Assembly (NCBI RefSeq): GCF_029866485.1
Contig: NZ_CP092332.1
Coordinates: forward strand, 1 to 64,000
DNA length: 64,000 nucleotides
Direction of reading: 5' to 3'
Source of the DNA: Flavobacterium keumense
GTDB taxonomy: Bacteria > Bacteroidota > Bacteroidia > Flavobacteriales > Flavobacteriaceae
The notes beneath the pieces were generated by a model that saw only the letters and a program-made list of their open reading frames with translations, was not told the origin of the DNA and ran no database searches. This document shows, piece after piece, positions 16,043-46,113 of this stretch. Within the stretch, counting starts at the first letter, position 1. Each line of letters opens with the position of its first letter. The position numbers and the translations under genes were made by a program.

Positions 16043-17452
16043 TTATTCTTGAGGTTTTGTCGCATAGTAAATCGGTATCCCTGTCAGCATAATTAAAACT
16101 CCCCAGCCACAGGTTGAAAATTTAGTGATTAATAAAGACACACATATAGCAGAAGCTATTATTATATATATCAACGGAAGAATTGGATAGCCAAAAGCTT
16201 TATAAGGTCTTTCTATTTCAGGCATTTTTTTACGCAGAATAAAAATTCCACAAATTGTTAGAATATAAAATATCAAAACAATAATCATTACAAAATCTAA
16301 CAAATCACCATATTTACCTGTCAAGCATAGAAGCGAAGCCCAAATACATTGTACCCATAGCGCCCATTCAGGTACACTTGCCGAATTCAAATTAGCGGCT
16401 TTTTTCAAGAACAAACCGTCTTTAGCCATGGTATAATATACCCTTGCTCCTGCCATAATCAATCCATTATTACAGGCAAATGTCGAAATCATAATCATTA
16501 CAGCAATAATGATTGTACCTATATCTCCAAAAGTATATTGAGAAGCCACTACGGCTACCCTATCCGATTTGGCGGTTGCAATTTCATCAAGTGGAATTAC
16601 CGCTAAGTACATTAAATTTGTTAATACATAAATAATTGTAACTATAAAAGTTCCCAGAAACAAACTCAAACCTACATTACGTTTTGGATTTTTAATTTCT
16701 CCAGCAATAAAAGTAACTCCAACCCAAGCATCGCTTGAGAACAACGATCCTACCATAGCCGCAGAAATCCCTGTCAGCAAAGCAGTTCCTCCAATAGGCA
16801 ACCACGAACTTGTGTCTGTATTAAACGAACGGGTATTCCATGTATCTGACCAATTGGCATTCCAAATCTCGGCTTTAGCAGCCAATAAAAACCCAAAAAT
16901 AATCAACCCAAATAACGATACAATCTTTATTATAGTCAAAACGGTTTGTAATATTTTACTATTCTTTACTCCTCGACTATTTATGTAAGTAAGTAATACA
17001 ATCGTGATAATTGAAACGATTTGAGCTGCGTTTAATTTAAAAGTGCCTAACTCATATAGAATATTTTCATCGCTTAGCGAAGGAATTAAATACGCAGCGA
17101 ATTTTGAAAAACCAACCCCTACAGCAGCAATTGTACCTGTTTGAATAACCGCAAAGAAACTCCAACCATACAAAAAGGCAATCAGTTTGTTATAAGCTTC
17201 TTTCAAATAGACATATTGCCCACCTGCATTTGGAAACATGGCGCTCAACTCTCCATAACTCACTGCGGCAATCATGGTGATTATTCCTGAGATTAACCAA
17301 ATCAAAGTCAACCATCCCGCTGACCCTACTTGTCTAGCAATATCAGCACTTACAATGAATATTCCAGAGCCAATCATAGATCCCACTACTAGCATTGTGC
17401 CGTCTAACAATCCTAATTCTCGTTTAAAATCTCCTGGTCGATTTTCTTCCAT
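16043..17452 (-). CDS. APC-superfamily amino-acid permease
   Basis: Inner-membrane amino-acid transporter of 469 residues with about 12 hydrophobic helices. The first helix contains the APC signature GTMLVVGSMIGSGIF. I start it at ATG 17452 (MEENRPGDFKREL). The frame stays open for 83 more codons upstream, but these run across a terminator hairpin and into the end of the LysM gene, and their translation looks random. It resembles LAT/serine-threonine exchanger-like members (AYNKLIAFLYGWSFF; SGVFF-type loops). The substrate cannot be told. It is convergent with ald. Confidence 0.9.
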   Translation of the reverse strand: MEENRPGDFKRELGLLDGTMLVVGSMIGSGIFIVSADIARQVGSAGWLTLIWLISGIITMIAAVSYGELSAMFPNAGGQYVYLKEAYNKLIAFLYGWSFFAVIQTGTIAAVGVGFSKFAAYLIPSLSDENILYELGTFKLNAAQIVSIITIVLLTYINSRGVKNSKILQTVLTIIKIVSLFGLIIFGFLLAAKAEIWNANWSDTWNTRSFNTDTSSWLPIGGTALLTGISAAMVGSLFSSDAWVGVTFIAGEIKNPKRNVGLSLFLGTFIVTIIYVLTNLMYLAVIPLDEIATAKSDRVAVVASQYTFGDIGTIIIAVMIMISTFACNNGLIMAGARVYYTMAKDGLFLKKAANLNSASVPEWALWVQCIWASLLCLTGKYGDLLDFVMIIVLIFYILTICGIFILRKKMPEIERPYKAFGYPILPLIYIIIASAICVSLLITKFSTCGWGVLIMLTGIPIYYATKPQE

Positions 17453-17548
17453 AATTATTGGTTTTAGTTTTTGGTTGGTTAAAGATATACTTTTTTTTAA
17501 AACCGAGTTTTTCAAAGTAAAAGAAATAAACAATACCCTATTTAAAAC

Positions 17549-17576
17549 AAAAAACTCCTCAAATGAGGAGTTTTTT
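17549..17576 (-). terminator. Terminator after the LysM-NlpC gene
   Basis: CTCCTC (17555-17560) AAAT GAGGAG (17565-17570), flanked by A6 and T6. It begins 7 bases after the - strand stop. Confidence 0.88.
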
Positions 17577-17582
17577 GTTTTC

Positions 17583-19040
17583 TTATTGTTGCAACACCCT
17601 ATTGATTTGGGTGAAATTTTTCTCGTAATATTTCTCTTTGGTAGAAGAAATAATAACACCACTTTGCGTTGAGGAATGAATAAATCGAATTTCTCCATCA
17701 CACACTTCCACCACCATTCCTACGTGATTAATCTGACTCCCTCCTCTTGTTTTGAAGAAAATTAAATCTCCTTTTTTAGCCTCTTTAGCCTCTACTTTGG
17801 TCCCAATTGCAGCCATTTCAACGGAGGATCTTGGTAATTTAATATCCAACGAACTAAATGTAGAATACATCAAACCTGAACAATCAAATCCATTCTTCGA
17901 TGTTCCACCTGCACGGTATCTCGAACCTAAATTATCGGATGCCATACGAATTAACTCGTCTGCTAATTCTTCATTGGTATTCCACTTTGCAATACTACTA
18001 GCTATCGTAAGATTTTCTTTTTTGGCAACCGCATCAGTGGTTTCTGTCGACACAAGTTGAGTTTCAACAATAGTATCTTCTTGAATGGTTTTGGCTCCAG
18101 AAATAGTCAATTTGGCACCTACGTACAAATTCTTAACAATCGTTGGATTTTGATTTTCTAATTCTGCTACCGAAATTCCGTACTTTTTAGCAATTCCGTA
18201 TTTCGTCTCTTTTGGAAGCACTTCATGAGTCACCGTTTCTTGCTTCTCTTCGACTAGTTCTTTTTTAACTACTACTGTTTCTTCTTTGACTTTTTCTTTT
18301 AGCTCTATCTTTTTAGATGGTACCACCTCCACTTGTTTTAGCACTGGTGCAACGGCTGTAATTCCTTCTTTTATTGGAATCACAATTTTTTGACCCGCCT
18401 TAAGTGCTTCTTTTTCTAATATCGGATTAGCTTTATCCAAATCAGCTACCGAAATCCCATACTGTTTCGCGATTCCGAATTTTGTTTCAGATGGTACTAC
18501 TTCATGGATTGTTGTTTCTGTTTGTGGAGTAACTGCTAATGGAATACCTTTTTCTTGTTTTTCTTTGAGAACTACTTCTTTTTTAGGTTCTAATTGTAGT
18601 GTTTCTTTCTTAGTAACTAAATTAGCATTAGCCTTGGTCGGAATCTTGATTTTTTGTCCTGCTTTCAAACCTGCTTCTGCTAATTCAGGATTTGCTGCAT
18701 TCAATTCTTCTAAAGAAATTTCATATTGTTTTGCAATACCAAACAGAGTTTCTTTGGGTTGTACTTCGTGTAAATTTTGAACTAAAGTTGGCTTTGATTC
18801 TATTTTTGCCTTACCACTTTTTGATGTTTGGCGCGGAATCAAAATAATCGATTCTAATTTTAACGTTCTAGTACAATCTGGATTAAGTTCATAAATAGCA
18901 CTTGGCTCAACTTTATATTTTTGGGCGATTGCAGTAATTGTTTCGCCTTTTTGTACGGTATGTTTTATCAGTTTTTCTTGAGAAAAAGCTGCTGATAAGT
19001 TAATAAACGATAAAATTAAAATTAGTTTGCAATACTTCAT
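17583..19040 (-). CDS. LysM-repeat NlpC/P60 cell-wall endopeptidase
   Basis: Exported protein of 485 residues with a signal peptide ending near SAAFSQ. Four LysM domains follow, at about residues 26-70 (HTVQKGETITAIAQKYKV), 92-135, 180-223 and 270-312. They share a HEVxPxETxxGIAKxYGIS pattern and are joined by Lys/Glu-rich linkers. The C-terminal NlpC/P60 domain (about 365-485) has catalytic Cys in GFDCSGL, His in NHVGMV and a third polar His in FIHSST. It should bind peptidoglycan through LysM and cut stem peptides (gamma-D-Glu-diamino acid bond). The regularity of LysM 2-4 points to internal duplication. Confidence 0.93.
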   Translation of the reverse strand: MKYCKLILILSFINLSAAFSQEKLIKHTVQKGETITAIAQKYKVEPSAIYELNPDCTRTLKLESIILIPRQTSKSGKAKIESKPTLVQNLHEVQPKETLFGIAKQYEISLEELNAANPELAEAGLKAGQKIKIPTKANANLVTKKETLQLEPKKEVVLKEKQEKGIPLAVTPQTETTIHEVVPSETKFGIAKQYGISVADLDKANPILEKEALKAGQKIVIPIKEGITAVAPVLKQVEVVPSKKIELKEKVKEETVVVKKELVEEKQETVTHEVLPKETKYGIAKKYGISVAELENQNPTIVKNLYVGAKLTISGAKTIQEDTIVETQLVSTETTDAVAKKENLTIASSIAKWNTNEELADELIRMASDNLGSRYRAGGTSKNGFDCSGLMYSTFSSLDIKLPRSSVEMAAIGTKVEAKEAKKGDLIFFKTRGGSQINHVGMVVEVCDGEIRFIHSSTQSGVIISSTKEKYYEKNFTQINRVLQQ

Positions 19041-44416: not shown

Positions 44417-44446
44417 TAAAAAAAAGTCCGCTATTTCTAACGGACT
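44417..44446 (-). terminator. hpf terminator overlapping the tRNA-operon start
   Basis: On the - strand AGTCCG, a 10-base loop, CGGACT, then eight T. It ends hpf transcripts. It begins right after the -7 box of the tRNA operon. Confidence 0.75.
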
Positions 44447-44501: not shown

Positions 44502-44804
44502 TTAAACCGATGTTCTTATTTTTTCTTTTCTTTTTACCAACAAACGTTCTAATGATTCTGTTGCTAAATCAACTGCTTCTTCAAATGTTTTACACTGTTT
44601 CTTAACCACAAAATCATCCCCAGGCACATTTATTTTTATTTCAACGAATTTATTTTCCTTATCACTAGCCTTTTCTACCTTAAGAAAAACATCTGAAGCA
44701 ACCACTTTATCATAATATTTTTCTAATTTATTCATTTTTTCCTGAATAAAATCAACCAATTTTCTATCAACATTAAAATTGACAGCATGAATACTTACCT
44801 TCAT
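44502..44804 (-). CDS. hpf: Ribosome hibernation-promoting factor / RaiA family
   Basis: A protein of 100 residues, the short form: one S30AE domain (MKVSIHAVNFNVDRKLVDFIQEKMNKLEKYYDKV; TFEEAVDLATESLERLLVKRKEK) without the C-terminal dimerisation domain of long HPF. It binds the 30S decoding site in stationary phase. It is 36 bases after xerC and followed by a terminator. Confidence 0.93.
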   Translation of the reverse strand: MKVSIHAVNFNVDRKLVDFIQEKMNKLEKYYDKVVASDVFLKVEKASDKENKFVEIKINVPGDDFVVKKQCKTFEEAVDLATESLERLLVKRKEKIRTSV

Positions 44805-44840: not shown

Positions 44841-45737
44841 TTATTTTTGGTTTCTTGGATGCGCTTCTTTATACACTTTTTTAAGTTCGGACAAACTATT
44901 ATGAGTATATACTTGCGTCGAGGCTAAACTAGAATGACCTAATAATTCTTTGACTGAATTTAAATCGGCTCCGTGATTCAACAAATGAGTTGCAAATGTA
45001 TGACGCAAAATGTGCGGACTCTTTTTTGTTTTTTCGGAAACAATACTAAAGTACGAATTTATTAATCGGTACACAAAAGAATCATTAATTTTTAACCCTT
45101 TTTTTGTAAGAAAAAAATATTCTGAGTCGATTATATTTTCCAATCTAGACCTTTCCGAAAGATAACTCTCAAACTGACAATTGATTACCGGAAGAATTGG
45201 AATGATTCTTTCCTTATTTCTTTTTCCTAAAACTTTAATTGTACTGGCGGCAAAATTAACATTTGCAATCTTTAAATGAACCAACTCAGTTCTTCGCATA
45301 CCTGTAGCATAAAACAAGTCAATAATTAATTTATCTCGGATAGCTTCAAAACCAGAAGGATTTTGTAAATGCAGCAAAACAGCATCAACTTCATTTTCGG
45401 AAAAAGGAATTTGGATTTTTTTAGGAGTCTTTAATGCTTTGTGTTTCAAAAGCGGATTCACTTCTATTTGTTTGGTTTTAAGAAGAAATTTATAATACGC
45501 CTTAAGCGAAGCAATTTTTCGATTAATAGAAACATTGGAGAGATCATCATCAACCAAAGAAACAATCCAACTTCTAATTTGAGTATAATTAACCTGGTCT
45601 ATGGTTGGTTGTTCAAATTGAACCAGATTAAACGATTCAAAAGAGACAATATCATTCCAATAGGCCTGCACAGTATGTGGGGAATATTTTTTCTCCAACT
45701 GCAAATAATCTCGAAATGCTTCTTTATTTTCTTTCAT
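44841..45737 (-). CDS. xerC: Xer-type tyrosine recombinase
   Basis: A protein of 298 residues with N-terminal SAM-like DNA-binding domain (YLQLEKKYSPHTVQAYWNDIVSF) and a C-terminal catalytic domain. The residues R148, K172, H242-x-x-R245, H268 and nucleophile Y277 are all present. Length and motifs (HILRHTFATHLL, LLGHSSLASTQVYTH) fit XerC/XerD, which resolve chromosome dimers at dif. XerC versus XerD cannot be settled from sequence alone. The conserved rpsU-xerC-hpf-tuf setting argues for a housekeeping recombinase, not a phage integrase. Its ATG directly abuts the T tract of an upstream hairpin. Confidence 0.92.
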   Translation of the reverse strand: MKENKEAFRDYLQLEKKYSPHTVQAYWNDIVSFESFNLVQFEQPTIDQVNYTQIRSWIVSLVDDDLSNVSINRKIASLKAYYKFLLKTKQIEVNPLLKHKALKTPKKIQIPFSENEVDAVLLHLQNPSGFEAIRDKLIIDLFYATGMRRTELVHLKIANVNFAASTIKVLGKRNKERIIPILPVINCQFESYLSERSRLENIIDSEYFFLTKKGLKINDSFVYRLINSYFSIVSEKTKKSPHILRHTFATHLLNHGADLNSVKELLGHSSLASTQVYTHNSLSELKKVYKEAHPRNQK

Positions 45738-45742
45738 AAAAA

Positions 45743-45785
45743 AACCGTTAGCATCAAAATTATATAATTTTAATGACTAACGGTT
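45743..45785 (-). terminator. Long hairpin between rpsU and xerC (terminator or attenuator)
   Basis: AACCGTTAG (45743-45751) / CTAACGGTT (45777-45785), with an inner AAAATT / AATTTT stem. On the - strand it is followed by seven T that run straight into the xerC ATG, so only read-through transcripts can encode XerC. Confidence 0.75.
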
Positions 45786-45807: not shown

Positions 45808-46002
45808 TTAACTTTCTAAACTATCTTTCAAATTTTGGATATAAGCCGCCTTTTGGAATTTCATTCTATTCGTTACAGATGGCTTAATGAAAGCTTGACG
45901 TGCACGCAACTGACGAACAGTTCCTGTTTTATCAAATTTTCTTTTATAGCGCTTTAATGCTCTATCGATATTTTCTCCGTCTTTAATTGGTATAATTAAC
46001 AT
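45808..46002 (-). CDS. rpsU: Ribosomal protein bS21
   Basis: Small basic 30S protein of 64 residues (MLIIPIKDGENIDRALKRYKRKFDKTGTVRQLRARQAFIKP). In Flavobacterium ribosomes bS21, with bS18 and bS6, holds the 3' end of 16S rRNA so that the anti-Shine-Dalgarno is masked. Unlike nearly all genes in the window it has a perfect Shine-Dalgarno at ideal spacing, consistent with published autoregulation by ribosomes lacking bS21. First gene of the rpsU-xerC-hpf group. Confidence 0.96.
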   Translation of the reverse strand: MLIIPIKDGENIDRALKRYKRKFDKTGTVRQLRARQAFIKPSVTNRMKFQKAAYIQNLKDSLES

Positions 46003-46010
46003 AATATAGA

Positions 46011-46018
46011 CACCTCCT
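46011..46018 (-). promoter_or_regulatory. rpsU: Perfect Shine-Dalgarno of rpsU
   Basis: AGGAGGTG on the - strand, 8 bases before the ATG at 46002. No comparable site was seen before the other genes inspected here. Confidence 0.85.
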
Positions 46019-46113
46019 CTCGTTAAGGCTGCAAAACTATAAATAAAATATGAATTATGAATTATAAATTATAAATTATTTATAAAATTCCCATCCCCTC
46101 AACTCAATCTGCT

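Follow-up and report, generated by a model that had tools for sequence, protein, structure and literature searches.

In Flavobacterium johnsoniae, the rpsU gene, which encodes ribosomal protein bS21, is autoregulated by ribosomes that lack bS21 (PMC9976891). According to the available text of that paper, rpsU is transcribed alone and has a native leader of 25 nt. The 70S complexes of wild-type ribosomes on rpsU mRNA are very stable; an rpsU reporter is translated poorly by wild-type ribosomes and 3- to 5-fold better by those of bS21 mutants. The helix between the Shine-Dalgarno (SD) sequence of rpsU and the anti-SD (ASD) of 16S rRNA ranges from -14 to -21 kcal/mol over 9-13 bp, and rpsU autoregulation has been predicted for about 80% of Flavobacteriales (PMC9976891). 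In Chryseobacterium and related genera, an alternative ASD, UCUCA, is accompanied by a matching rpsU SD (Jha et al. 2021, as cited in PMC9976891 and PMC8710568). No further study of bS21 autoregulation was found among the newer papers listed on F. johnsoniae ribosomes.

How does rpsU of Flavobacterium keumense compare? The gene lies in a 64,000-nucleotide stretch of contig NZ_CP092332.1 that was analysed as a whole (the window). Like F. johnsoniae, this genome has an extended rpsU SD, a canonical 16S tail, a bS21 with Tyr54, and near-identical bS18 and bS6; the rpsU site is the lone strong SD, here within the starts that were sampled. Unlike the F. johnsoniae system, it belongs to another genome and is known here from sequence alone. 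The rpsU site is very probably the published switch, and to that extent it is already explained and not new. The two genes that follow rpsU are presumably xerC and hpf (Table 1), and the hairpin that separates them from rpsU raises a question of its own.

Table 1. Features of the rpsU-xerC-hpf region, in positions of the window
Feature	Position	Strand	Details
Terminator-like hairpin 3' of hpf	44425..44446	minus	
hpf-like, hibernation promoting factor	44502..44804	minus	100 aa; Pfam Ribosomal_S30AE 1.8e-19
xerC, tyrosine recombinase	44841..45737	minus	298 aa; Pfam Phage_integrase 8.5e-37, Phage_int_SAM_1 5.7e-18
Probable rpsU terminator	45738..45785	minus	hairpin 45785-45743 plus T7 45744-45738; touches xerC ATG
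TAATTTTG, probable xerC-hpf -7 box inside hairpin	45755..45762	minus	predicted start 45750, 13-nt leader
rpsU, bS21	45808..46002	minus	64 aa with Tyr54; Pfam Ribosomal_S21 9.5e-17; 57/64 identical to F. johnsoniae chain 7jil_z
Extended Shine-Dalgarno GAGAGGAGGTGT	46010..46021	minus	12 contiguous 16S-tail pairs; 7 nt between its end and rpsU ATG
Predicted sigma-A -7 box of rpsU TAGTTTTG	46032..46039	minus	placed at -12..-5 (PMC9723704)

The rpsU leader and its ribosomal partners

Read directly on the minus strand, the rpsU leader is GCCTTAACGAGAGGAGGTGTCTATATT-ATG. A sequence-only reading of this DNA had placed an SD, AGGAGGTG, 8 bases before the bS21 ATG; the distance is exactly 8 bases, with the ATG at 46002, and the complementarity is longer than had been stated. 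In all, GAGAGGAGGUGU (46021-46010) forms 12 contiguous pairs, one of them G-U, with ACACCUCCUUUC of the 16S rRNA, at -20.9 kcal/mol. This helix lies inside the range published for rpsU (PMC9976891) and below the -13 kcal/mol taken as the mark of an F. johnsoniae-type circuit. The energies come from ViennaRNA duplexfold with positions 1532-1544 of the 16S rRNA (ACACCUCCUUUCU) as the tail, the same choice of tail as in PMC9976891, where free_scan was used.

Three 16S genes were found in the genome with a covariance model, and each ends in GGCTGGAACACCTCCTTTCTA. The canonical CCUCC ASD, ACACCTCCTTTCT, whose retention the sequence-only reading had proposed to check, is thus intact in all three copies. 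The other partners are conserved as well: bS18 is identical to its F. johnsoniae counterpart at 91 of 98 positions (7jil_w) and bS6 at 108 of 113 (7jil_k), figures that describe overall identity and not single contact residues. Eight Protein Data Bank entries contain the bS18 and bS6 sequences of F. johnsoniae and five contain its bS21; some newer ones (9oyv, 9ozz, and 9p0e) may represent particles without bS21.

The leader can also be delimited from its predicted promoter. Flavobacterial sigma-A promoters carry TAnnTTTG at -12 to -5 of the mapped start (PMC9723704). The box assigned to rpsU on this pattern predicts a transcript start at 46027, which would give a leader of 25 nt, the length stated for F. 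johnsoniae (PMC9976891). Its TA..TTTG is invariant in all 19 aligned leaders of the genus, the present one included. The leader RNA itself showed no special structure on folding (z 0.76). Upstream of the promoter, at 46040-46080 of the window, there are A/T-rich repeats of the TAATTCA/TAATTTA type, which are also found in many relatives of the same genus.

Gene starts, relatives, and phages

How exceptional is such a site within the genome? Pairing energies were ranked for 365 ORF starts, drawn from the window and from 20 further stretches of 20 kb (464 kb, 18% of the genome), taking ORFs of at least 90 aa, with rpsU (64 aa) as the exception, and their first ATG as the start; the genome outside this sample was assessed by sequence patterns only. 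In this ranking rpsU comes first, and it is the sole start below -13 kcal/mol, followed by starts at -12.6 and -11.0. The second-ranked start (window 16043-17698) was set aside: its upstream mock window gives -11.8, and its first ATG is doubtful. When all 22-mers containing GG on both strands of the window were scored, 12 reached -17 kcal/mol or lower, all within 46000-46032. The starts of tuf, nusG, secE, hpf, xerC, rpsF, rpsR, and rplI range from -0.4 to -4.9 kcal/mol; the ribosomal protein genes among them stand at -1.0 (rpsF), -0.7 (rpsR), and -4.9 (rplI).

The claim that this genome hardly uses SD sequences is borne out by the sampled starts, with one control pointing the other way. Pairing of -6 kcal/mol is reached by 11 of the 365 starts in the SD window versus 35 in the upstream mock window, and -8 by 3 versus 14; at -12 the counts are 2 and 1. 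Genome-wide, AGGAGG N3-13 ATG occurs 154 times against 192 in the reversed control, and RRGGRGGTG N4-11 ATG 7 times against 11. By contrast, GGAGGTG N4-12 ATG occurs 40 times against 24 in the control, opposite to SD depletion. Thirty of these 40 places were inspected; in 29 the site falls within a stretch of 200 codons or more that is free of stops on one of the two strands, the exception being rpsU. The longer pattern GRRRGGRGGTG has four matches in the genome, one at rpsU and one opposite the 3' end of each 16S gene, on the antisense strand; the reversed control also has four. Many equally strong sites would have told against a special role for rpsU, but none was found among the 365 sampled starts, and this pattern is unique apart from the rRNA tails. 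One further candidate for an rpsU-type site, AGGAGGTGTATAACTTAATG at 115628, was rejected, its ATG opening six codons and the site lying antisense in an 812-codon stop-free stretch; the same sequence is present, as a pattern match only, at 2226364.

Among the 31 genomes searched (F. keumense and 30 relatives), bS21 was found in 30. The extended SD is present in all 18 relatives of the same genus, at -19.2 to -21.3 kcal/mol, and the 16S tail was identical in the nine of them for which it was recovered. A/G swaps occur within the site, as in GAGAGGAGG and GAAAGGGGG, and the pairing survives them because A and G both pair with U. Outside the family the picture is more varied. Of 11 loci from other families, six of which come without a recovered 16S tail, L105 falls below -13 kcal/mol when scored with the Flavobacterium tail, as does L103 when scored with its own. 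The latter is a case of covariation between the SD and an altered ASD, as published. Covariation of the Chryseobacterium type is seen in relative G022, where the tail is ACATCTCATTTTA and the rpsU leader contains AAAATGAGATGT, with a pairing of -14.6 kcal/mol with its own tail versus -4.5 with the Flavobacterium tail; F. keumense instead keeps the canonical CCUCC. In three others of these 11 loci, from genomes outside the genus (G020, G025, and G029), no rpsU SD was found, the values with their own tails being -0.9, -1.2, and -0.3.

A wider set of named genomes comprised the best 80 of at least 590 confirmed loci, all scored with the Flavobacterium tail. The rpsU SD reaches -17.0 kcal/mol or lower in 78 of these best 80, and no SD was found with that tail in the other two (L231 and L242). 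The top 37 loci among the best 80 (L180-L216) include 29 named Flavobacterium. Since the SD is absent from the three genomes above and from two of the best 80 named loci, the circuit appears to be dispensable in the order.

Do phage copies of bS21 carry the same signal? Phage-encoded bS21 (PMC9723584) belongs to the same protein family, and no test of a phage bS21 SD was found in the available text of that paper. The viral set read here consisted of 37 of 39 loci (L142-L164 and L166-L179, with 18 distinct leaders): L165 was dropped because its start was unreadable, and L141 because it is a bacterial rpsU-xerC-hpf cluster. Five of eight matches in phage records (L260-L264) were added. None of the 37 viral loci and none of the five phage records reaches -13 kcal/mol with the Flavobacterium tail, which may not be that of the hosts. 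With the same tail, the best phage pairing is -12.1 (L262), and 11 of the 37 viral loci have AGGAGA immediately 5' of the ATG, at -7.3 or -9.1. Most of the bacterial rpsU loci examined, unlike these phage genes, carry an extended SD. If bS21 genes of Bacteroidota phages are truly without one, the phage copies would escape the feedback loop of the host. The contig of L141 is listed as viral; its bacterial rpsU has the same leader as G022, fitting a UCUCA-type tail, and it probably lies beside an integrated element.

The hairpin between rpsU and xerC

The sequence-only reading had noted a hairpin downstream of rpsU that runs into the xerC ATG. It is present, at -21.2 kcal/mol (z -5.95), with none of 200 shuffles equally stable, and its outer two pairs use two T of the T7 run. 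A stable stem behind a gene, with a U-run directly after it, is what an intrinsic terminator would look like, and this is the probable identity of the hairpin. A simple terminator scanner did not list it, probably because the stem has a bulge and an inner part rich in A+T. As a control within the genome, 213 terminator-like sites in the 464 kb were compared: a -7 box lies 34-12 nt upstream of where the T-run ends in two, rpsU being one of them, and the ATG of a 60-codon ORF lies within 8 nt in two, with the rpsU-xerC site alone touching it.

The stem is also maintained in relatives. An alignment was made from 34 loci with a called 39-nt stem-loop and a box, leaving out L221 (39 nt, no box). 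Over its 27 distinct rows, pairing holds in 94.8% of cells, and five pairs have changed on both sides. None of 500 shuffles reaches the covariation score, although relatedness is not accounted for in them; for further pair types, the count does not exceed that of shuffles (351/500). TTTG is invariant on the 3' strand of the hairpin because the rows were selected for the box. A hairpin was called in 93 linked loci; the box lies inside it in 58, the T-run touches the xerC ATG in 46, and both hold in 38; an hpf homologue is present in 90 of the 93. Loci of Gillisia, Aquimarina, and Salegentibacter show the arrangement of hairpin, box, and ATG too, in part with other stem sequences.

Is the box inside the hairpin a promoter element of xerC? 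Of the 110 loci examined, 100 have the xerC start no more than 260 nt from the rpsU stop. TAnnTTTG occurs between the two genes in 78 of these 100 and is missing in 22. In 34 loci it starts 25-26 nt upstream of the xerC ATG, and in 13 the distance is 12 nt; the expected background is about 0.09 per position on the assumption, not valid here, of independent loci. The 13 loci with the box at -12 (L227, L232, L238, L241, L243, L248, L251, L252, L254, L255, and L257-L259) belong to Maribacter, Flagellimonas, and their kin, and this position predicts a leaderless xerC mRNA in them. No clear -33 element could be recognised before xerC, and a sigma-70-type promoter scan is uninformative for this phylum.

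Could the hairpin be mainly an element of the xerC start, such as an operator or a translational control, and not a terminator? It does stay beside the xerC ATG as the gap between the genes widens in Gillisia and Aquimarina, and in G020 a hairpin-T8-ATG arrangement with a box precedes xerC while rpsU is about 0.9 kb away. Against this stand the T-run directly after the stem and the box-less hairpin called behind rpsU in 12 of the 13 loci with the box at -12, which would be expected if terminator and promoter functions were separable. This alternative is considered unlikely.

A different proposal, made in the sequence-only reading, was that the hairpin lies inside a single rpsU-xerC-hpf mRNA, so that XerC and HPF levels would depend on the rpsU transcript. 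The two genes are adjacent and co-oriented, mostly at the short distances given above, and some readthrough is possible. This coupling is nevertheless not supported, and a shared mRNA is very improbable given the terminator features of the hairpin, the xerC-proximal box at fixed distances, and the published transcription of rpsU alone in F. johnsoniae (PMC9976891). In G016, moreover, where xerC is not beside rpsU, the rpsU hairpin is short and box-less (L102), while xerC retains a box at -24 relative to its ATG with no strong hairpin (L265). Because the hairpin would both end the rpsU transcript and hold the -7 box of xerC-hpf, the two are predicted to be separate transcription units.

A more specific idea is that one element serves as both rpsU terminator and xerC promoter, with occlusion or hand-over by RNA polymerase, and that in readthrough transcripts the hairpin blocks the xerC AUG, leaving XerC and HPF insulated from rpsU or inversely coupled to it. 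This is tentative and, on present evidence, more doubtful than not. The main text of PMC9976891 contains no match for xerC. Among the open-licence papers listed, no report was found of such a junction of terminator, promoter, and start, nor anything joining rpsU, xerC, and Flavobacterium.

Probable autoregulation of bS21 and the predicted fate of its transcript

The masking of the 16S tail, the slow and fast states of rpsU translation, and the feedback between them would be expected here from what has been published on a close relative. The tail would be held by bS21, bS18, and bS6 in complete ribosomes, so that the rpsU SD would be little used and rpsU translation would be slow. In ribosomes lacking bS21 the tail would be free to pair over 12 bp with the 25-nt leader, and such ribosomes would make bS21 until it is restored. 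The downstream hairpin would then end the rpsU transcript, and the -7 box within it would start a separate xerC-hpf mRNA. The autoregulatory loop suggested by the sequence-only reading is backed by homology, through the SD, the 16S tail, the near-identical bS21, bS18, and bS6, and the predicted 25-nt leader.

Constant high translation from a strong SD, with no feedback, might be favoured by the aid that so long an SD could give to initiation and by the stable wild-type 70S complexes on F. johnsoniae rpsU mRNA, but there is little likelihood of it in view of the reporter results from the same species (PMC9976891) and of strong pairing being rarer at gene starts here than in the mock window. There is high confidence in the joint reading, in which the rpsU SD is the bS21 switch of F. 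johnsoniae and rpsU and xerC-hpf are separate units.

What does this mean for the organism and its family? The junction of terminator, promoter, and start at xerC is a modest new observation, a prediction from sequence that applies to many loci of the family. The analysis also corrects the notion that recombinase and hibernation factor are made from the rpsU mRNA. This genome very probably provides another instance of the specialised bacterial ribosomes already published, and the sequence-level parts that were testable are present in it.
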